This document shows positions 9,072 through 26,152 of a stretch of DNA of 64,000 nt, piece by piece (position 1 is the stretch's first letter; each line of letters starts with the position of its first letter). The notes under the pieces are model-generated. The model was not told the origin of the DNA. It did no database searches and worked only from the letters and a program-made list of their open reading frames with translations. The DNA comes from Alkalicella caledoniensis (GTDB lineage: Bacteria; Bacillota; Proteinivoracia; Proteinivoracales; Proteinivoracaceae): NCBI RefSeq assembly GCF_014467015.1, contig NZ_CP058559.1:2914001-2978000 (forward strand), given 5' to 3'. Both the position numbers and the translations under genes were made by a program.

Positions 9072-9458
9072 ATGCCGAGAAAATCTTTCACTGCCAAAGG
9101 AGCAGTGGCAATTGGACCATACTCCCACGCAGTACAAACAGGAAATCTTTTATACCTATCTGGCCAAACCCCTATAGATCCAAAAACAGGAAAATTAGTA
9201 GAAGGTGACATAGGAGCCCAAACTAAACAATGCTTTGAAAACCTATTTAACGTACTAGCTGCAGCTGACCTGACACCAGACCATGTAATAAAAGTGAACG
9301 TATTCCTAACTAACATGCAAGATTTTAGCGAAATGAACGCAGTGTACCAACAACAATTCACAGAGCCCTACCCCTCACGAACAACCATAGGAGTAGCAGA
9401 ACTACCACTGGGAGCAAAAGTGGAAATAGAGATGATAGCTGAAATTGAAAAGCAATAG
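9072..9458 (+). CDS. ridA: RidA-family enamine/imine deaminase
   Basis: A 128-aa protein of the RidA/YjgF/UK114 family at its usual length. It hydrolyses reactive enamine/imine intermediates such as 2-aminoacrylate. Family features are present: GPYSHAV near the N-terminus, YLSGQTP, the substrate-carboxylate Arg103 in PYPSRTTIGV and the acidic residues of VEIEMIA near the end. The start follows a GGAAGGA site. It is a cytosolic trimer in known members. The neighbours do not point to a special pathway. Confidence 0.93.
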   Translation: MPRKSFTAKGAVAIGPYSHAVQTGNLLYLSGQTPIDPKTGKLVEGDIGAQTKQCFENLFNVLAAADLTPDHVIKVNVFLTNMQDFSEMNAVYQQQFTEPYPSRTTIGVAELPLGAKVEIEMIAEIEKQ

Positions 9459-11360: not shown

Positions 11361-11940
11361 GAATGGATGTAAAGTAGATACCAGTGTAAGGAGAGATGAT
11401 CGTGAAATGTTATTATCATAGCGATAGTGAAGTGGTTGCAGTATGTAAAATCTGTAATAAAAACCTTTGCAAAGAATGTTATGACTTAGGGGATAGTGGT
11501 AGATGCAAGCCTTGTATAACTAAAGCAACGGAGCAAAAACATAGGCAAAGGGAGTTTAGAATCAAAAATGAAAGTGTTGAATATGTAAGAAATGCAGGGA
11601 TTTTTTCAGTATTAGGCGCATTTATAGGCTATACCACATCCATAAGATACCTTAGTGGAATAGAAAATAGCGATATACCTGCTCTAGTTTATAAATTAGG
11701 TTTCATATTACTATTTGCCTATTTGGGGATTTCACTTATTTGTGGATTGAAGATAATGAACGGGACATTTCGCTCCATGGGAAGTTTAGGGTTGTTATTG
11801 ATTTTTATATGGCCAATTTATGTTGCATTGCTAATAATTGCCCTTATGATTGGAATGTTTTGCTCAGTTCCACTATTACTGTACCATCTTTATAAACTGT
11901 ACATAAAGCCACCAGTTCCTCACCAGCAAAGTATGTAATT
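11361..11940 (+). repeat. Duplicated block, copy 1 (zinc-ribbon membrane protein gene)
   Basis: This 580-base block, starting at GAATGGATGTAAAG, is nearly identical to 14326-14908. The copies differ by scattered substitutions and a few bases in the leader. They are in direct orientation. Confidence 0.85.
11402..11938 (+). CDS. Zinc-ribbon membrane protein, copy 1
   Basis: A 178-aa protein. The N-terminus (MKCYYHSDSEVVAVC then CNKNLC, CYD, CKPC) is a B-box-like zinc-binding module with paired Cys/His ligands, followed by a charged stretch (residues 40-60) and about three membrane segments (residues 65-165). The GTG start at 11402 is preferred because AAGGAG lies 8 bases upstream; the ATG at 11396 is too close to it. 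A nearly identical copy lies 3 kb downstream. Many clostridial proteins with this layout are of unknown function; metal sensing or protein contact are possible roles. Confidence 0.75.
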   Translation: MKCYYHSDSEVVAVCKICNKNLCKECYDLGDSGRCKPCITKATEQKHRQREFRIKNESVEYVRNAGIFSVLGAFIGYTTSIRYLSGIENSDIPALVYKLGFILLFAYLGISLICGLKIMNGTFRSMGSLGLLLIFIWPIYVALLIIALMIGMFCSVPLLLYHLYKLYIKPPVPHQQSM

Positions 11941-14325: not shown

Positions 14326-14908
14326 GAATGGATGTAAAGCAAAAGATACCAGTGTAAGGAGAGATGATCGTGAAATGTTATTATCATAGCGATAGAGAAG
14401 TGGTTGCAGTATGTAAAATCTGTAATAAAAACCTTTGCAAAGAATGTTATGACTTAGGGGATAGTGGTAGATGCAAGCCTTGTATAACTAAAGCAACGGA
14501 GCAAAAACATAGGCAAAGGGAGTTTAGAATCAAAAATGAAAGTGTTGAATATGTGAGAAATGCAGGGATTTTTTCAGTATTAGGCGCATTTATAGGCTAT
14601 ACCACATCCATAAGATACCTTAGTGGAATAGAAAATAGCGATATACCAGCCCTAGTTTATAAATTAGGTTTCATATTACTATTTGCCTATTTGGGGATTT
14701 CACTTATTTGTGGACTGAAGATAATGAACGGGACATTTCGCTCTATGGGAAGTTTAGGGTTGTTATTGATTTTTATTTGGCCAATTTATGTAGCGTTGCT
14801 GACAATTGCCATTATGATTGGAATGTTTTGCTCCCCTCCACTATTACTGTACCATCTTTATAAACTATACATGAAGCCACAAGTCCCTCATCAGCAAAGA
14901 ATGTAATT
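14326..14908 (+). repeat. Duplicated block, copy 2 (zinc-ribbon membrane protein gene)
   Basis: The direct repeat partner of 11361-11940. Its left edge cuts the helicase fragment exactly at GAATGGATG, so this block was joined to the fragment by a recombination event. Confidence 0.8.
14370..14906 (+). CDS. Zinc-ribbon membrane protein, copy 2
   Basis: A 178-aa near-twin of the protein starting at 11402, with a few substitutions (for example DREVV for DSEVV near the start and TIAIMIGMFCSPP near the end). The zinc ligands and membrane segments are kept, so both copies look functional. The GTG start is chosen as for copy 1. It is the last gene before the nicotinate island. Confidence 0.75.
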   Translation: MKCYYHSDREVVAVCKICNKNLCKECYDLGDSGRCKPCITKATEQKHRQREFRIKNESVEYVRNAGIFSVLGAFIGYTTSIRYLSGIENSDIPALVYKLGFILLFAYLGISLICGLKIMNGTFRSMGSLGLLLIFIWPIYVALLTIAIMIGMFCSPPLLLYHLYKLYMKPQVPHQQRM

Positions 14909-18474: not shown

Positions 18475-19761
18475 GTGTTGGAAGAAAAAAATTACAGTGT
18501 TATAGGAAAAAGTGTAACGAAAAAAGATGTGTTAGCTAAAGTAACAGGAAAAGCTCAATATGCGGCCGATATTACATTAGACAATATGTTATTTGGTAAG
18601 GTGTTAAGAAGCACTGTTCCTGCTGCAATAGTAAAGAAAATAGATACTTCTAAAGCAAAGGAATTGCCAGGTGTAGTTTCTGTTCTGACCGCTAAGGACA
18701 TTCCGGGAGAAAATAGTGTAGGAATTATTATTAAGGATGAGCCAATTCTAGTGACCAATAAAATTAGAAGAATTGGAGATCCATTGGCGATTATAGCTGC
18801 AGAGACCATGGAAATAGCTGAAGAAGCTTTAGGACTGATTAAAGTAGATTTAGAAGAACTACCTGTCGTATCAAACATTGAACAGGCTCTTGATAAAAAC
18901 TCCCCTGTAATACACGGAGGAGAAAGTAACATTTTATCTACCAAGTTAATGGTTAAAGGGGATGTAGATAATGCATTCAAGGAGTGTGATATTATAATTG
19001 AAAATTCCTATAAAACTAGTATGATATCACATATGTTTATAGAGCCAGAAGCTGCAGTAGCAAAGTATGAAGATGGAAAAATAACCGTATGGAGCTCAAC
19101 ACAAAACACTCACTTTGACAGGGATGAAGTGGCGAGGATGCTAAACATGCCACAGAACAGAGTGCGTTGCATATGTGCTGAAACAGGCGGTGGCTTTGGT
19201 GGTAAGCTAGATATTTCTTTACAATGCTATTCTGCTTTATTAGCTTACTACTCTAAAAGACCAGTAAAGATGGTTAACACTCGTGAAGAATCAACAACTG
19301 TGTCGTCAAAACGCCATCCAACCCTCATGAAGTATAAGACAGGAGCAAAAAAAGATGGAAAACTTCATGCTATGGAAGTTGAGATTTTCCAGGACACAGG
19401 TGCGTACTCTTCATATGGGCTAGGGGTAATTACTAGAAGTGTTGTACATAGTACAGGTCCCTATGAGGTGCCTAATTTACGCGTAAAATCTACAATGGTA
19501 TATACAAATAACCCTATGGCAGGCGCAATGAGAGGATTTGGTGTTCCTCAAGTAGCAATAGCACACGAGGGTCAAATGGATGCACTTGCAAAAGAATTAA
19601 ATATGACTCCAGTGGAGATTAGGTTAATAAATGCCCTTAAAGTAGGATCGACTACAGGAACTAAACAAATTCTTGATAATAGCGTAGGCATCACAGAGAC
19701 AATAATTAAAGCAGTAGAAAAAAGCAAAGAAGTAATCTCGCAGGAAAGGAGGAGCTTATAA
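18475..19761 (+). CDS. ndhL: Nicotinate dehydrogenase, large molybdopterin subunit
   Basis: A 428-aa protein equal to the N-terminal half of a usual 750-800-aa molybdenum hydroxylase subunit. It has the a/b hammerhead domain (about 10-130), the cofactor loop GGGFGGK (about 240) and AMRGFGVPQ (about 345), and ends shortly after. The remaining domain is encoded by ndhM, which overlaps by one base. This split is the known hallmark of the selenium-containing nicotinate dehydrogenase of E. barkeri, and no other family member there was reported to have it. GTG 18475 or TTG 18478 may be the start; both follow GAGGAGGAG. The split is real, not a frameshift: ndhM has its own AGGAGG site. Confidence 0.92.
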   Translation: MLEEKNYSVIGKSVTKKDVLAKVTGKAQYAADITLDNMLFGKVLRSTVPAAIVKKIDTSKAKELPGVVSVLTAKDIPGENSVGIIIKDEPILVTNKIRRIGDPLAIIAAETMEIAEEALGLIKVDLEELPVVSNIEQALDKNSPVIHGGESNILSTKLMVKGDVDNAFKECDIIIENSYKTSMISHMFIEPEAAVAKYEDGKITVWSSTQNTHFDRDEVARMLNMPQNRVRCICAETGGGFGGKLDISLQCYSALLAYYSKRPVKMVNTREESTTVSSKRHPTLMKYKTGAKKDGKLHAMEVEIFQDTGAYSSYGLGVITRSVVHSTGPYEVPNLRVKSTMVYTNNPMAGAMRGFGVPQVAIAHEGQMDALAKELNMTPVEIRLINALKVGSTTGTKQILDNSVGITETIIKAVEKSKEVISQERRSL

Positions 19762-20747
19762 TGAAAAAAAGAGGCGTAGGAATGGGTTGTATGTGGTATG
19801 GGGTTGGTAATACTGGGCTACCTAATCCAGCAGCAGCTTTTGTTGAGGTTCATAGTGATGGTTCAGTTACAGTGCTAACAGGTGCTGCAGACATAGGACA
19901 GGGATCTGACACTGTCATGTGCCAGATTGTGGCAGAAGCACTAGGGGTCCATTATGAAGACGTTAGTGTATTATCTGCTGACAGTGGTGTTACCCCAGAG
20001 TCTGGCGCATCATCTGCCAGTAGACAAACATATATTTCAGGAAATGCTTGCTTAAATGCAGCAAATATGGCTAAAGAAACCATTGTAAAAGTAGCCGCAG
20101 AATTATTGGGTACTACAGCTTCTAACGTAGAATTGCGGGATAGGAGAGCCTTTGACAAAAATAACACCGACAACCACATCCTATATTCCAAAGTATTAAT
20201 GACCATGAAGCAAAAGGGTATTATCGCTGTAGGAAGTGGTAGCTTTAATCCAGATACCACAGGGTTAAATCCAGAAAACCTAGAAGGCAGTCCATATGGA
20301 ACTTACGCCTTTGCAACTCAGATTGTTGAGGTTGAAGTGGACACCGAAACTGGAGAAGTTGATGTTATAAAAATCATCGCAGCCCATGATGTAGGTACAG
20401 CCATCAACAAACAAAATGTTGAGGGGCAAATTGAAGGTGGAGCGTTGATGGGAGTTGGATACGCATTACTTGAGGAAATAGAGCTAGATAACGGTAAAAT
20501 AAAAAATCCAAATTTTACAAGTTACTTAATCAATACAGCAATGGACACACCCAAAATATATCCAATTATTGTTGAAGAACATAGCGAAACTGGACCCTTT
20601 GGAGCAAAAGGAGTCGGTGAACCTACATTGATCCCTACTGCACCGGCAATCTTAAGTGCAATAGAAGATGCCATAGGTATTAGATTTAATGAAGTTCCTG
20701 TAACTCCTGAAAAAATTATTAAGTCTCTAAAAAATGGAGGTAAGTAA
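19761..20747 (+). CDS. ndhM: Nicotinate dehydrogenase, medium molybdopterin subunit
   Basis: A 328-aa protein equal to the C-terminal half of a molybdenum hydroxylase large subunit. GAADIGQGSDTVM (about 33-45) is the cofactor-binding Q-loop and GAKGVGEPTLIPTAPA (about 280-295) holds the catalytic Glu. It joins NdhL to make the active site; in E. barkeri the enzyme carries labile, non-selenocysteine selenium, and no in-frame UGA is seen here either. It starts at ATG 19761 overlapping the ndhL stop, with GGAGGAG upstream. Confidence 0.92.
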   Translation: MKKRGVGMGCMWYGVGNTGLPNPAAAFVEVHSDGSVTVLTGAADIGQGSDTVMCQIVAEALGVHYEDVSVLSADSGVTPESGASSASRQTYISGNACLNAANMAKETIVKVAAELLGTTASNVELRDRRAFDKNNTDNHILYSKVLMTMKQKGIIAVGSGSFNPDTTGLNPENLEGSPYGTYAFATQIVEVEVDTETGEVDVIKIIAAHDVGTAINKQNVEGQIEGGALMGVGYALLEEIELDNGKIKNPNFTSYLINTAMDTPKIYPIIVEEHSETGPFGAKGVGEPTLIPTAPAILSAIEDAIGIRFNEVPVTPEKIIKSLKNGGK

Positions 20748-20749
20748 AA

Positions 20750-21781
20750 ATGTCAAATACTAATGAAAAAGTTAGTTTCTTTAAAAGAAAGAACATAGAG
20801 TTCTCTGTTAAAAGGTACTTAATTGACACTTTAAGCTTCATGGCACTTGGTCTTTTTTCTTCACTAATAATCGGTAGTATAATGAATACAATCGGAAGTA
20901 AACTTGGGATACCATTTTTATCAGAAACAGTATGGCCCATTGCTAACAGTATGACTGGACCAGCTATAGCAGTTGCAGTAGCCTTTGGTCTTCAGGCTCC
21001 GCCTTTAGTAATGTTCTCAGCAGTAATAGTGGGAGCTGCTGGAGCGGCAAACGGTGGAGGACCTGTAGGTGCTTTGCTGGCAACGTTAGTTGGTGTGGAG
21101 TTCGGTAAAATGGTTTCAAAGGAAACAAAAGTGGATATAATCGTAACACCAGCTGTAACAATACTAGTTGGCTGCTTAGTTGCAAGCTTTGTTGCACCAG
21201 CTGTTGGAGCATTTATGACAAAGTTTGGTGAGTTAATTATGTATGCAACAGAGCTACACCCTGTTCCAATGGGTAGTTTAGTTGCTGTACTAATGGGAAT
21301 TGCCTTAACACTACCTATAAGTAGTGCTGCAATAGCAATAATGTTAAGCTTAAGTGGCATAGCTGCAGGAGCTGCCGTTGTTGGATGCTGTTGTCAGATG
21401 GTAGGTTTTGCTGTGCAAAGTTATAAAGATAATGGTTGGGGTGGAGTTTTTGCCCAAGGAGTTGGAACATCAATGCTCCAAGTACCAAATATCGTTAAAA
21501 AACCAATTATTTGGTTACCGCCAATTATAGCATCTGCTATACTTGGTCCAATTTCCGCTAGAGTATTACAAATGGAAAACACACCAATGGGTGCAGGTAT
21601 GGGAACCAGTGGTTTAGTAGGTCAGTTCGAAGCTATTTCAGCAATGGATGGTGGAGCTGGTATGTATCTATCCATATTTCTAATGCACATAGCACTACCA
21701 GCAATACTAGTGTATGTAATTTCTAAAGTCATGTATTCTAAACAAATACTTAAACCAGGTGATATGAAGTTAGACCTATAA
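20750..21781 (+). CDS. PTS-EIIC-like membrane transporter, candidate nicotinate permease
   Basis: A 343-aa membrane protein with about nine hydrophobic segments, of the stand-alone PTS IIC-like family (PTS_EIIC_2 type): rich in small residues, with GAAGAANGGGPVGALLATLVG, ELHPVPMGSLVAVLMGIALTLP and GGAGMYLSIFLMHIALP. There is no phosphorylatable IIA or IIB domain or gene nearby, so it is unlikely to work as a sugar PTS. It starts 2 bases after ndhM in the same sigma-54 operon, which suggests that it imports nicotinate or exports a by-product. The substrate is inferred from position only. Confidence 0.75.
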   Translation: MSNTNEKVSFFKRKNIEFSVKRYLIDTLSFMALGLFSSLIIGSIMNTIGSKLGIPFLSETVWPIANSMTGPAIAVAVAFGLQAPPLVMFSAVIVGAAGAANGGGPVGALLATLVGVEFGKMVSKETKVDIIVTPAVTILVGCLVASFVAPAVGAFMTKFGELIMYATELHPVPMGSLVAVLMGIALTLPISSAAIAIMLSLSGIAAGAAVVGCCCQMVGFAVQSYKDNGWGGVFAQGVGTSMLQVPNIVKKPIIWLPPIIASAILGPISARVLQMENTPMGAGMGTSGLVGQFEAISAMDGGAGMYLSIFLMHIALPAILVYVISKVMYSKQILKPGDMKLDL

Positions 21782-21819
21782 AAAAGTATTGTAACATCTT
21801 ATAAAAAACTAAATATCAA

Positions 21820-22058
21820 GCGTGGGGCTTAGCCCTTCCACTTTAGGGAGGAGTCTTCAGAGCTGTGAATCGGGGTAATCCATAAGCCGAGGAGCCGAGA
21901 AGAGGACAATGAGTTAAAGTGGTACTGCAGCGTTCAAGGATTGAAAATGGCAGGGGAGGACGATTAGGTGACTAATCACTATCAAATAAAGGTATTCTCA
22001 TAGATACCTTTATTTGAATATGGTGAAAACTCCTCCAAATTTAACGGGGGAGTTTTTT
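21820..22058 (+). ncRNA. Structured RNA leader, riboswitch candidate, with terminator
   Basis: This gene-free stretch folds extensively: GGGC/GCCC hairpin (21825-21835); an 8-bp long-range helix CCACTTTA (21838-21845) with TAAAGTGG (21915-21922) enclosing UCGG/CCGA (21870-21890); CTGC/GCAG (21925-21953) with inner UUCAA/UUGAA; GATTAG-GTGA-CTAATC with a GNRA loop (21962-21977); a 12-bp hairpin (21983-22016); then a terminator (22026-22058). GGAGGAGT at 21847-21854 is complementary to ACTCCTCC (22029-22036), the left arm of the terminator, so two exclusive folds are possible. It precedes a probable molybdate-type importer and a MocA-like gene, so a Moco- or metal-sensing RNA is plausible. I cannot match it to a known class from memory. 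Confidence 0.6.
22026..22058 (+). terminator. Intrinsic terminator at the end of the RNA leader
   Basis: AAAACTCCTCC pairs with GGGGGAGTTTT, followed by TT, about 105 bases upstream of the importer operon start. Confidence 0.8.
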
Positions 22059-22162
22059 ATTTCGAAGGAAATTATTTCATTTAGTCTTTTTCTCTTAGTA
22101 AGGATTATTGTTCTAGTTATCATATACAGGAGACATAGCATGTTCCTGATGGAGGTGTGACA

Positions 22163-22690
22163 GTGAATATTTTCCTAACAGGTGGAAAGCAAGTTGGCAA
22201 ATCTACAATAATAAATTCAGTAACAAATGAACTGGGTATAGGGGAGAAAACCATTGGGTTTAGGACATTGTTGAATCCTAGTACAGAAATAAGGACGTTT
22301 TATATAGAACCAATTAATATTTCACTATTAGAAAACCCATACAAAGACATAGGTTACTTTAAGGACGGTACAAAAACAGGGATTACATCTACCTTTGAAG
22401 ATTATGGAGTTAAATTACTAGAAAAATGTTTATCAGAGAGATCCTCAATAGTCCTCTTAGATGAAGTTGGTTTTTTTGAGGAAGGAGCACGAAATTTCCA
22501 AAAAAAGTTACATGAACTTCTAGACTCTCCTAAGACGGTCCTAGGTGTAATTAAAGAACATACATCCGAATTCTTGGACTCCATAAGATTTCGAGAAGAT
22601 GTGAGGATTTTACATGTAACACTAGTTAACAGAGAAGAAATTAAAATAGAACTTATAAAAATAATTAAAAATTTAAAACTAGAAAATTAG
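22163..22690 (+). CDS. THEP1-like nucleoside-triphosphatase
   Basis: A 175-aa P-loop protein similar to the NTPase_1/THEP1 family. Walker A is FLTGGKQVGKSTII (residues 3-16) and Walker B SIVLLDEVGFFEEGARNF (about 91-108), the latter with the family's typical acidic/aromatic pattern. It is preferred to start at GTG 22163, 7 bases after GGAGG; GTG 22157 touches that site. It leads the importer operon, 13 bases before the lipoprotein start. Its role with a metal-oxyanion importer or cofactor synthesis is unclear; related genes occur beside molybdenum-hydroxylase systems in clostridia, but I state this as inference. Confidence 0.75.
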   Translation: MNIFLTGGKQVGKSTIINSVTNELGIGEKTIGFRTLLNPSTEIRTFYIEPINISLLENPYKDIGYFKDGTKTGITSTFEDYGVKLLEKCLSERSSIVLLDEVGFFEEGARNFQKKLHELLDSPKTVLGVIKEHTSEFLDSIRFREDVRILHVTLVNREEIKIELIKIIKNLKLEN

Positions 22691-22703
22691 AGGAGTGAAT
22701 AAA

Positions 22704-23783
22704 ATGATTAAATCCAATAAAACAATGATACTTGTGATACTTTTACTTACATCAATAATTATGTCAGGGTGCTTGGGCTCACAGCAAAACCCCTCTGACA
22801 CAATAACAGAGACTAATAGAACTGTTATAGATCAAAAAGGTAGAGAAGTTGAGATTCCCAAAGAAATTAACAGCGTTGTGTCCACCTATGGCCCAGCCAC
22901 TAATTTGATTTTCGCAGTAGGGGCACAACACAAACTTGTGGCGGTGCCTGATAAAACACATTCTAACAAGTTTTTTACCAGTGTTTATCCAGAGGTGCTG
23001 AAATTAGATGAAATTGGCAGCAGAGGCGAAGGGTTAAATATCGAAGCAGTTATAGCATCAAACCCTGATGTTGTTATATTATTTCCCGGGAATGATAATG
23101 AAACAATAATAGAACAGCTTGCTACACAGAAGATTCCAGCTGTTGTAATTAACCCAGAAAGTATAGAAGAGATTTTAGAATGTATCGAACTACTTGGGGA
23201 TGTTTTAGGGAGAGAAGCACAAGCTAAAGAGTTAATTGCCTATTACATTGAGAGTCTAGAGCTTGTGGAGAGTAGGGTGTCTAACATATCCTTAGACCAA
23301 CGTAAAAAGGTATACTTAGCGGGATCTAATGGATTATTGTCAACAACATCTTCTGATATGTATCAACACCATCTGATTGAACAAGCAGGTGGAATTAACG
23401 TTGCAAGTTCCTTAAATGGAGGTTGGAACCAAGTTTCAGCAGAACAGTTAATAAAATTTAACCCCGATTTTATTACTTCCGTACAATATAGCAAAGGGAA
23501 TGTAGCACAGGAAATATCAGACAATAAACAGTTTAGTAATATAGAAGCAATAAAAAATAAACAGGTTTATATTTTCCCCTCAAATTTAGGGGGATGGGAT
23601 ATGCCAGAGCCTAGGTCCATATTAGGGATCCTGTGGTTATCAAATATGCTATATCCTGAAGAATTTGCTGACATGGACATATTAAAAGAAATAGAGGAAT
23701 TTCATCTAAATTTCTATGGCAAGAATTTCACAGAACTTGGGGGAATTTTAAATGATAATGAAATTCTGGAGAAAATTAAATAG
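22704..23783 (+). CDS. ABC importer substrate-binding lipoprotein (FecCD/BtuF type)
   Basis: A 359-aa lipoprotein with signal peptide and lipobox (IIMSGC, Cys23). The class III binding-protein fold is seen from DQKGREVEIPKEINSVVS, LNIEAVIASNPDVVILF and the long linker helix after residue 160. Such proteins bind haem, siderophores, cobalamin or, in MolA of Haemophilus, molybdate/tungstate. Placement between ndhFSLM and a MocA-like gene favours molybdate. The start is ATG 22704, 8 bases after AGGAG. Its 3' end overlaps the permease gene by 32 bases. Confidence 0.88.
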   Translation: MIKSNKTMILVILLLTSIIMSGCLGSQQNPSDTITETNRTVIDQKGREVEIPKEINSVVSTYGPATNLIFAVGAQHKLVAVPDKTHSNKFFTSVYPEVLKLDEIGSRGEGLNIEAVIASNPDVVILFPGNDNETIIEQLATQKIPAVVINPESIEEILECIELLGDVLGREAQAKELIAYYIESLELVESRVSNISLDQRKKVYLAGSNGLLSTTSSDMYQHHLIEQAGGINVASSLNGGWNQVSAEQLIKFNPDFITSVQYSKGNVAQEISDNKQFSNIEAIKNKQVYIFPSNLGGWDMPEPRSILGILWLSNMLYPEEFADMDILKEIEEFHLNFYGKNFTELGGILNDNEILEKIK

Positions 23784-24792
23784 TAATCTTAAAAACAAAA
23801 AAAGTACCATATTTATTTTTTTCATAGTAACTATATTCATTTCTTTATTTTCTGGACGTTATAGCGTAAAGGTTGATGAAATATTGACTTTGTTTCAAGA
23901 GCTTCCTAATTTTCTATTAGGAAATGAAATAACAAGTAATCAGAGTTTAGTATTTTACTATATCAGACTCCCAAGAATTATTTTAGCTTTAGTAACTGGC
24001 GTAGTACTAGGTGGAACAGGTGTTGTTTTTCAAGGGGTCTTTAAAAACCCCTTGGCCTCCCCAGATGTGTTAGGAGTCACAGCAGGGTGTACTGTTGGTG
24101 CTGCTATAGCCATACTACTCCCCTTTGAAGGCAATCTAATTATACAAGTAACAGCATTTGTGTTTGGTATAGTTACAGTTTTTATTACATATGGTCTTGC
24201 AAAAGCTTCAAAAAACAAAAACATAGTGATGCTAGTGCTAGCTGGCATGGTTGTATCCGCATTCTTTTCAGCTATGCTGTCACTAATTAAATACATGGCA
24301 GATCCATTTGAACAACTTCCAGCTATTGTTTTTTGGACAATGGGAGGATTCCATAGAGCTTCATGGCCTAGGATTCAAACGCTACTTATAACAGTTCTAC
24401 CGTGTATTATTTTTTTAAAATCTACATCTTGGAAGTTGAACATACTGTGCTTGGGTGATGAAGATGCACAGGGATTAGGTATAAATGTAAAGAGACTGCG
24501 CCTTATAATACTGAGTATATCTGCATTTATGGTTGCAAGCTGTATTAGTATTACTGGAACCGTTGGATGGGTGGCTTTAGTCGTACCCCACATTACTAGG
24601 TTATATGTTGGAGCAGATCACAGTAGGCTACTTCCGATGAGTATGTTGGTTGGCGGAGGTTTCACAGTACTAATGGATACTATAGCAAGATCACTTACAA
24701 CTTCCGAGATCCCAATCAGTATACTAACAGCAGCCATTGGTGCACCAGTCTTTGCTTACTTACTTATAGTTAAAAGCACTGTGGAGGGATAA
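23752..24792 (+). CDS. ABC importer permease, FecCD type
   Basis: A 346-aa permease with about ten membrane segments of the FecCD/BtuC/MolB family: YIRLPRIILALVTGVVLGGTG, FKNPLASPDVLGVTAGC and GTVGWVALVVPHITRLYVG are the conserved loops. It is the membrane channel for the binding protein before it and the ATPase after it. ATG 23752 starts within the preceding gene, so translation is coupled. Confidence 0.9.
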   Translation: MIMKFWRKLNSNLKNKKSTIFIFFIVTIFISLFSGRYSVKVDEILTLFQELPNFLLGNEITSNQSLVFYYIRLPRIILALVTGVVLGGTGVVFQGVFKNPLASPDVLGVTAGCTVGAAIAILLPFEGNLIIQVTAFVFGIVTVFITYGLAKASKNKNIVMLVLAGMVVSAFFSAMLSLIKYMADPFEQLPAIVFWTMGGFHRASWPRIQTLLITVLPCIIFLKSTSWKLNILCLGDEDAQGLGINVKRLRLIILSISAFMVASCISITGTVGWVALVVPHITRLYVGADHSRLLPMSMLVGGGFTVLMDTIARSLTTSEIPISILTAAIGAPVFAYLLIVKSTVEG

Positions 24793-24794
24793 TT

Positions 24795-25562
24795 ATGACT
24801 ATAAAAATTACAGATATCCAATTTAACTATAATCAGAGGCGTGTCCTAAAAGGATGTTCGTTAATTATTGAAAGAGGTAACATATACGGTCTTTTAGGTG
24901 CTAATGGAGCGGGAAAAACAACCCTAATGAAAATTATAAAGGGACTGCTTAAACCGCAAAATGGAGATGTTGAAATTGATGGAAGAAACACTTTAGCAAT
25001 GACCATAGAGGAAATATCCCAAAAGATTGCTACTGTTTCCCAAGACACTAATCAAGTATTTCCTTTTTCTGTACTTGATATGGTAACTATGGGGAGGAAT
25101 CCTCACATCAAGCTTTTCGGTAAGCCAATAAAGGAAGATTACATAAAGGCAGAGGAGTCTTTAGCATTGGTAGGAGGGCTTTACTTAAAAGAGAGAATTT
25201 TTAATGAGCTAAGTGGCGGGGAGAGGCAATTAGTTATGATAGCTAGAGCATTAGCACAACAAACTCCATACATATTATTTGATGAACCTACTGCTCACTT
25301 GGATTTTACAAATCAGCATGTAATTTTAAAAGTTATAAGGGATGTTGTAAAGAAAAATAATTTAGGGGTCTTAATTTGCATGCACGACCCTAATCTAGTG
25401 TACCAGTATTGCTCACACTCAGTGATGATACATGAGGGTCAAGTTCTTAGTAAAGGTTTAACAAAAGAAGTTTTTAATGAAGGCAATCTATCTTACCTCT
25501 ATGGAACATCCACTAAAATCAGTCGAATAGACAATGGACTAATCTATGTTTCAGCTAAGTAA
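24795..25562 (+). CDS. ABC importer ATP-binding protein
   Basis: A 255-aa ATPase of the FepC/BtuD/MolC type. Walker A is GANGAGKTT (about 34-42), signature LSGGERQL (about 138), Walker B ILFDEPTAHLD (about 158-168), and switch His in CMHDPN. It starts 2 bases after the permease stop and ends 23 bases before the MocA-like gene. Confidence 0.92.
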   Translation: MTIKITDIQFNYNQRRVLKGCSLIIERGNIYGLLGANGAGKTTLMKIIKGLLKPQNGDVEIDGRNTLAMTIEEISQKIATVSQDTNQVFPFSVLDMVTMGRNPHIKLFGKPIKEDYIKAEESLALVGGLYLKERIFNELSGGERQLVMIARALAQQTPYILFDEPTAHLDFTNQHVILKVIRDVVKKNNLGVLICMHDPNLVYQYCSHSVMIHEGQVLSKGLTKEVFNEGNLSYLYGTSTKISRIDNGLIYVSAK

Positions 25563-25585: not shown

Positions 25586-26152
25586 ATGATAACAGCTATT
25601 ATAATGGCATCAGGTTACTCGAGAAGAATGAAACAAAACAAACTACTATTAAAGATATTCGGTAAACCTATGGTGGAACATGTTATCGATATAGCAAAAA
25701 AAGGATCTCTAGATGAGATCTTATTGATATATAAGGACCAGGAAGTTAAAGAGATAGCGAGTAAAAATAATGTTAATTCATTGTATAACAAATATGCATA
25801 TCTAGGACAAAGTGAGGCCATAAAATTAGGAGTCAGCAACTCCCATGAAGACACTGAGGGATATATGTTTTTAACATCGGACCAACCACTGCTGACAGAA
25901 GACATACTAAATAGACTAATCCACAAATTTAATCAAAATAAGGACTGCATAATAGTGCCTTTATATGGGGACAAGCCTGGCAGTCCTTGTATATTTCCAA
26001 AGAAATTCAAGAATCAACTACTTAGCCTTTCAGGAGATACTGGAGGCAGAAGAATAATCAAAGGCAATACACAGCATGTACTATATGTGAATATAGAAGA
26101 GCATGCAGGACATGACATTGATAAATGGGAGGACTATATAGGAATTTTTTAA
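25586..26152 (+). CDS. mocA: MocA-like molybdenum cofactor nucleotidyltransferase
   Basis: A 188-aa MobA/MocA-type nucleotidyltransferase. The N-terminal loop IIMASGYSRRMKQNKLLLKIFGKP is the NTP-binding signature, and TSDQPLLT the metal-binding DxP motif. MocA-type enzymes join CMP to molybdopterin to make the MCD cofactor used by xanthine dehydrogenase-family enzymes such as nicotinate dehydrogenase; some relatives (YgfJ) act in selenium-dependent hydroxylase maturation. It is co-directional with the importer genes and directly precedes the second sigma-54 operon. Confidence 0.85.
   Translation: MITAIIMASGYSRRMKQNKLLLKIFGKPMVEHVIDIAKKGSLDEILLIYKDQEVKEIASKNNVNSLYNKYAYLGQSEAIKLGVSNSHEDTEGYMFLTSDQPLLTEDILNRLIHKFNQNKDCIIVPLYGDKPGSPCIFPKKFKNQLLSLSGDTGGRRIIKGNTQHVLYVNIEEHAGHDIDKWEDYIGIF

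Follow-up and report, generated by a model that had tools for sequence, protein, structure and literature searches.

The gene-free leader in front of a molybdate-type importer operon in Alkalicella caledoniensis looks like a riboswitch, a known kind of regulator, but of a new class. We put at about 60% the probability that it is an OFF riboswitch acting on transcription, from a class without an entry in Rfam, whose ligand would be the molybdenum cofactor (Moco), a derivative of it or its oxyanion; that it is a conserved cis-regulatory RNA is nearly certain. At the level of sequence, this reading is suggested by a multi-helix domain found in four genomes, a G-rich linker 3′ of it, a terminator arm complementary to the linker, and importer genes further 3′. 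All coordinates refer to the stretch of DNA that was analysed, here called the window (64,000 nucleotides of contig NZ_CP058559.1).

The leader is bounded by a gene ending at 21781 and by an NTPase gene, and the interval from 21782 to 22156 contains no open reading frame of at least 80 amino acids in the window's ORF list, in agreement with the original prediction of a stretch without a gene. It consists of three parts:

21819-21984, plus strand: conserved aptamer-like domain of 166 nt, the part with covariance-model matches in genomes G277, G410 and G477.
21982-22018, plus strand: AT-rich hairpin between domain and terminator, seen in the fold, with a sequence that is not conserved.
22025-22060, plus strand: intrinsic terminator, with a 12-bp stem, a 9-nt loop and a T run, as had been predicted.

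The folding energy of the whole leader is low compared to shuffles (z = -3.96), and once the terminator and the complete AT-rich hairpin are removed, the z value is -0.42, with 62 of 200 shuffles folding as well or better. Folding energy alone is weak evidence for the leader, which stands above chance because of homology and covariation, not because of energy. A promoter scan gave a single match, on the opposite strand, with no excess over shuffles.

Covariance models, refined stepwise from the single window leader (R1) to two (R2) and three (R3) sequences, identified relatives of the leader in three other, distantly related genomes at 98-166 bits. R1 yielded a 98.2-bit match in G277, directly 5′ of an NTPase homologue; G277 is of another family than the window genome (G000), within the same phylum. 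R2 found the leader of Lutibacter sp. B2 (G410), at 132.7 bits on a truncated locus and 152.6 bits in full, and R3, run on 393 relatives of G410, found that of G477 at 166 bits. The three domains are 72-75% identical to that of the window over the alignment. The small membership, four leaders of which two share 84% identity, counts against our best explanation.

The genomes searched sum to 1833, many of them counted more than once, and the E-values of R1-R3 are unreliable given their short calibration, with chance matches down to 1.5e-4. At E ≤0.1, R1 matched 8 of 398 genomes, of which G000 and G277 were accepted. The remaining matches were rejected: L034 overlaps long ORFs; L038 lies inside an ORF, and R2 scores only another place in that locus, at 4.6 bits; L036, L037 and L039 drop to 9.7, 11.8 and 10 bits under R2; and L040 drops out of the R2 list. 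The R2 scan matched 3 of 380 genomes, a set that seems to overlap with those scanned before, G277 being accepted and L048 and L049, both inside protease-like ORFs, rejected, while the R3 scan matched 3 of 393, with G410 and G477 accepted and L121, inside a 637-aa ORF, rejected. All rejected genome-scan matches score at most 23.3 bits. No further member emerged with R1 from 31 relatives of the window genome (two matches, G000 and the rejected L034) or from 101 relatives of G277 (two matches, G277 and again L034), and R2 matched only G277 itself among 26 genomes of its class. The NTPase has a match in 64 of 398 genomes; R1 was run on 29 of these loci besides that of the window, and the leader was found only at the G277 locus. 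A first DNA-pattern scan of genome contigs gave no match, and a second gave 55 stretches, one of which is a member by R2 (L078, the G410 locus) and 54 of which are not; this second pattern would miss G477, so absence by pattern says little. Viral contigs gave 0, 1 (a non-member) and 0 matches to DNA patterns and no relative in a protein scan, plasmids and phages gave no match, and blastn over 101 genomes returned the window itself only. No description of the leader RNA was found in the open-access literature; as papers are not searchable by sequence, a description may have been published outside it. In L036, between fliR- and flhB-like ORFs, positions 1501-1606 hold a palindromic stretch that partly matches the P3 loop motif (CCAUAAG) and is possibly a separate structure.

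The domain is composed of the following helices:

21820-21823, plus strand: 5′ strand of Px (GCGU), which pairs with 21930-21933 in all four leaders; two of its four pairs change on both sides.
21930-21933, plus strand: 3′ strand of Px, inside the loop of P4.
21824-21836, plus strand: P0 hairpin (GGGGC UUA GCCCU), with both-side changes in two pairs of the model-fitted alignment and one of the unfitted.
21838-21846, plus strand: 5′ strand of P1, which pairs with 21914-21922; two pairs have both-side changes.
21914-21922, plus strand: 3′ strand of P1, which pairs with 21838-21846.
21854-21858, plus strand: 5′ strand of P2 (UCUUC), which pairs with 21899-21903; two pairs have both-side changes.
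21899-21903, plus strand: 3′ strand of P2 (GAAGA), which pairs with 21854-21858.
21870-21890, plus strand: P3 (UCGG/CCGA) with a 13-nt loop; three of four pairs change on both sides.
21925-21953, plus strand: P4 (CUGC at 21925-21928, GCAG at 21950-21953), invariant.
21933-21937 and 21941-21945, plus strand: P4a, the distal helix of P4, with both-side changes in three pairs of the fitted alignment.
21962-21977, plus strand: P5 hairpin, with a GNRA loop that is GUGA here and GCGA in G277; one pair has both-side changes, and the loop stays GNRA.

Covariation was counted on alignment A8, a MAFFT alignment of the four leaders that was not fitted to any structure. Over seven helices and 33 pairs, all 132 cells contain standard pairs, and 11 of the 33 pairs change on both sides. 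These changes, which the original prediction had named as its test, are found in every helix except P4, which lacks covariation because it is invariant, a point against our best explanation. None of 500 shuffles reaches the observed pairing and covariation, and structures slid along the alignment are 36-55% paired. In an exhaustive scan, made with no model, for helices of at least four pairs held in all four leaders, P3 and Px head the list, followed by two registers of the P2 strand and then P1. The leader has in these helices a conserved structured domain with covariation, which is one mark of a riboswitch. Within the P3 loop, UAAUCCAUAAG is invariant in all four leaders and is likely a ligand or tertiary site.

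Px was not drawn beforehand; it was proposed by RNAalifold on A8, as columns 2-5 with columns 114-117, and reads GCGU/GCGU, GUGC/GCAC, ACGC/GCGU and GGGC/GCCC in the four sequences. It crosses P4 (CUGC/GCAG), which RNAalifold, unable to write pseudoknots, omitted when drawing Px, and the two helices therefore make a pseudoknot if both form; the domain is probably pseudoknotted in this way. Of the fold first described, the long-range stem stands as P1, with 9 bp including one G-U where 8 bp had been given, as do the GNRA hairpin and the terminator, while the pseudoknot helix Px had been missed.

A terminator-type hairpin precedes the first gene in all four loci; that of the window was not picked up by a simple consensus scan, which allows loops of up to 8. 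Three strands of the leader are relevant to how this hairpin could be controlled:

21953-21960, plus strand: G-rich linker 3′ of P4 (GGGGAGGA), the proposed antiterminator strand, which pairs with the 5′ arm of its own terminator in all four leaders.
21834-21839, plus strand: CCUUCC, invariant and complementary to linker positions 21954-21959 in all four leaders, with no double changes.
21847-21854, plus strand: GGAGGAGT, complementary to 22029-22036, a strong match special to the window genome.

The predicted energy of the linker with its own terminator arm is -11.0 kcal/mol in the window, -18.0 in G277, -13.8 in G410 and -15.1 in G477. The window pairing is the weakest of these, with only six pairs at -11.0 versus -15.6 for the terminator stem, which also counts against our best explanation. 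In G410, where both linker and arm are changed, the arm fits its own linker best of the four (-13.8 versus -8.4, -6.4 and -7.4 with the other three linkers). The remaining arms discriminate less, and the G410 linker scores -14.8 with the arms of both G277 and G477, slightly better than with its own. The original prediction had assigned the switching role to another strand. GGAGGAGT at 21847-21854 is indeed the exact complement of ACTCCTCC at 22029-22036 in the window, but this pairing is not conserved: with its own arm, the site scores -15.3 kcal/mol in the window and -7.4, -5.1 and -7.7 in the three relatives, and a complement of at least 8 bases to the terminator arm is present in 92 of 2000 shuffles. 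We rejected it as a conserved antiterminator site, since it is weak in three relatives whereas the linker at 21953-21960 pairs in all four. Mutually exclusive pairings in the expression platform, a second mark of a riboswitch, are indicated by complementarity in all four leaders, and the covarying domain joined to a linker complementary to the terminator arm argues for the riboswitch-like logic that had been proposed.

The leader is followed by five genes on the same strand:

22163-22690, plus strand: NTPase_1 gene (PF03266, 79.8 bits), starting at GTG 22163 by homology, with the ORF called from 22157.
22695-23783, plus strand: periplasmic-binding-protein gene of the importer (PF01497), with HI_1472 (MolA), E = 1.3e-34, among its best PDB relatives.
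23752-24792, plus strand: FecCD-type permease gene (PF01032).
24795-25562, plus strand: importer ATPase gene (PF00005).
25586-26152, plus strand: gene for the molybdenum cofactor cytidylyltransferase MocA (TIGR03310, 192 bits, cut-off 186.45).

These genes are preceded in the window by XDH-type subunits and a PTS_EIIC_2 protein, which lie 5′ of the leader. The G277 leader lies between XDH-type subunits, a permease, YqeC, a MocA-like ORF, XdhC and YqeB on the 5′ side and, on the 3′ side, the NTPase, DUF364, an NMT1/SsuA-like binding protein, a permease, an ATPase and a molybdopterin-binding domain protein. The order in G410 is XDH-type subunits, nucleobase permease, PucR, leader, binding protein, FecCD permease and ATPase, with no adjoining NTPase, and the last three proteins share 51, 57 and 47% identity with their window counterparts; that in G477 is an aldehyde-oxidoreductase-type Mo subunit, a DVU_155x/TrsS cluster, leader, FecCD permease, ATPase, binding protein, DUF364 and NTPase. 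Thus all four leaders lie between Mo-hydroxylase genes (5′) and importer genes (3′), and position before genes linked to one ligand, a third mark of a riboswitch, is found here as importer genes in all four loci with a molybdenum context. The importers resemble the molybdate transporter MolBC-A in three of the four loci; that of G277 is of another type, with its NMT1/SsuA-like binding protein, which we count against our best explanation.

Several features of these and related loci were noted in passing. Lutibacter sp. B2 is filed under Bacteroidota by its NCBI name, but the importer proteins of its loci L078/L108 share 47-57% identity with their window counterparts; this assignment may be mistaken. 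The Mo-binding hydroxylase subunit of the window is split over two adjacent ORFs of 428 and 328 aa (18475-20747), and looks naturally split rather than frameshifted because the same split is present in L114 and L115. Small LysR-type HTH proteins (PF00126), ModE-like by eye, adjoin NTPase or Mo genes at L116 4629-4967 and L114 13954-14319, and are another sign of Mo or W control for such genes. The window also has two near-identical 180-aa ORFs about 3 kb apart (11396-11938 and 14364-14906), with a B-box-like zinc start and a membrane part by eye, and an ORF at 9072-9458 that, judged by eye, we take to resemble the RidA family. Stretches neighbouring related loci carry a TPP riboswitch (L112 3205-3309) and a glycine riboswitch and tRNA-Sec (L118 387-492 and 42-132).

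The strongest pointer to Moco as the ligand is that homologous operons elsewhere follow RF01055, the Moco/Tuco riboswitch family. The importer and NTPase operons of G167, G080 and G069 are preceded by RF01055 copies of 75.8, 72.1 and 86.8 bits, which show the P3 helix of that family in the alignments (shortened in G080); the original prediction had missed these riboswitches. Five of 11 fetched regions (L109-L113) have importer genes next to the NTPase; three of the five have RF01055 upstream, L110 ends at a contig end, and L113 is without RF01055 upstream (the Rfam scan of related loci omitted L117 because of its size). The order permease, ATPase, binding protein, NTPase is common to G477, which has the new RNA, and to G069 and G080, which have the Moco RNA, with DUF364 between the last two genes in G477; the G477 permease is 56% identical to those of G069 and G080. 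With the molybdenum context of the loci, these RF01055 copies make the molybdenum-related ligand originally predicted from the downstream genes likely.

Regulski et al. (2008, PMC2408646) associate Moco with the P3-bearing RNAs of the RF01055 family and the tungsten cofactor with those that have no P3. The one RF01055 copy found in the window genome is without P3 in the alignment, and precedes a TupA-like tungstate-binding gene (250.7 bits, below the family cut-off of 400). G277 has two copies over the cut-off; the 66-bit copy is without P3 in the alignment, and the second seems to be so by length and sequence. Because the RF01055 copies there are P3-less, the new RNA may stand in for P3-bearing RF01055 in these genomes, although this rests on few genomes. 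Going further, and with less than even odds, we tentatively consider that it is a second Moco riboswitch class, with a fold unrelated to RF01055, that serves the Mo importer where RF01055 copies are all of the P3-less or tungsten-cofactor type.

In the proposed mechanism, ligand binding would hold the domain together and keep the linker from the terminator arm; the terminator would form and the importer would not be made. Without ligand, the linker would pair with the terminator arm and transcription would continue. In a cell with sufficient molybdenum cofactor, the importer would be switched off, and we infer this OFF response here as the usual logic for importers. CCUUCC may alternatively pair with the linker, a pairing incompatible with P0 and with the two initial pairs of P1; the folded domain could sequester the linker in this way. 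The most plausible ligand is the molybdenum cofactor, in its pterin form or as the cytosine dinucleotide made by MocA, with molybdate or the tungsten cofactor next best.

Purine or selenium metabolism would also fit the neighbouring genes, which counts against our best explanation, and a riboswitch or leader sensing another ligand (a purine such as xanthine or urate, a compound of selenium, or a different substrate of the importer) has to be weighed. XDH-type hydroxylases, a nucleobase permease and PucR adjoin the leader, and YqeB/YqeC in G277 and TrsS in G477 are tied to selenium by name. However, Moco riboswitches precede the homologous operons of G167, G080 and G069, the stretches L109, L111 and L112 show no XDH homologue among the ORFs compared, and the binding protein is MolA-related, all of which makes another ligand unlikely. 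The terminator and antiterminator layout would equally suit an attenuator whose effector is a protein and not a small molecule, and the linker could be protein-held, but extended unpaired stretches without variation and a pseudoknot that extends over 160 nt, which are typical of ligand-binding RNAs, render such an attenuator distinctly improbable. A plain terminator of the preceding operon, surrounded by structure that arose by chance, would account for the unremarkable energy of the domain alone and for an 8-base complement of the sort given by 92 of 2000 shuffles; it is contradicted by the four homologues and by covariation in every helix but P4, and is scarcely credible.

The preferred reading also requires that the leader belong to no known RNA class; the original prediction, which could not place it in one, had named a search of Rfam and of RF01055 in particular as the check. 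None of the 4227 families of Rfam 15 has a match at gathering score anywhere in the window, and none was obtained on the leaders at such scores. With E up to 10, the window leader gave only matches far below gathering scores and the G277 and G410 leaders nothing near any gathering score, and no match was obtained on the G477 leader at E up to 0.001. RF01055 (gathering score 36 bits) is absent from the window, G277 and G410 leaders under permissive filters with E up to 10 and from the G477 leader at E up to 0.001, and in the reverse direction the RF01055 copies L042-L044 are not listed by the new model with E up to 10. Strong divergence within RF01055 would fit the kind of operon downstream, which in relatives has RF01055 at the same place, and a GNRA hairpin is present in both RNAs. 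Nevertheless, the failure of the models in both directions and a different helix plan lead us to consider such divergence very improbable, and we dropped membership in the Moco family for want of a model match.

If the new RNA is a second class unrelated to RF01055, it would be a clean case of two RNA folds that reach the same regulatory end on homologous importer operons, and the importer with its NTPase and DUF364 genes would be tied to molybdenum. Moco and its tungsten twin are described as served by one RNA class (PMC9971707), and the two cofactors are hard to tell apart; a cell with the second class could read the Mo cofactor and the W cofactor with two different RNA folds, which would open a new way to study the discrimination of Mo and W by cells.

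Comparison with known systems places the RNA as follows. The T-box leader (RF00230) likewise has a terminator platform, and AAAGUGGUACUGCAGC at 21917-21932 presumably resembles the T-box sequence. We rejected it, since the matches listed for the window leader with E up to 10 do not include RF00230 and the AAAGUGGUACUGCAGC stretch is accounted for by P1, P4 and Px; moreover, the genes 3′ of the new RNA are not amino-acid genes. Moco-II (RF01713) is named after the same cofactor but is listed for Proteobacteria (PMC2864571), and it is likewise missing from these listed matches (E up to 10). At the protein level, the window's encoded binding protein is related to HI_1472 (E = 1.3e-34) of MolBC-A from Haemophilus influenzae, a type II importer whose MolA is reported to bind molybdate and tungstate (PMC4031551); the likeness is a protein relationship only and says nothing about the RNA. 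The nearest parallel among RNAs is RF01055, which precedes Mo/W importer and Mo-enzyme genes, has a multi-helix domain with a GNRA loop and, in some members, uses a terminator platform (PMC2408646). Unlike the new RNA, whose sequence has no covariance-model match to it and by eye no common core, RF01055 is described as a P1-closed multistem junction with a tetraloop receptor in P2 and a GNRA loop on P4 (PMC2408646). This arrangement is not found in the consensus helices of the four members, which have instead the Px/P4 pseudoknot and a GNRA hairpin, P5, outside the main domain. By analogy with the homologous operons, the new RNA seems to do the job of the Moco riboswitch with another fold.
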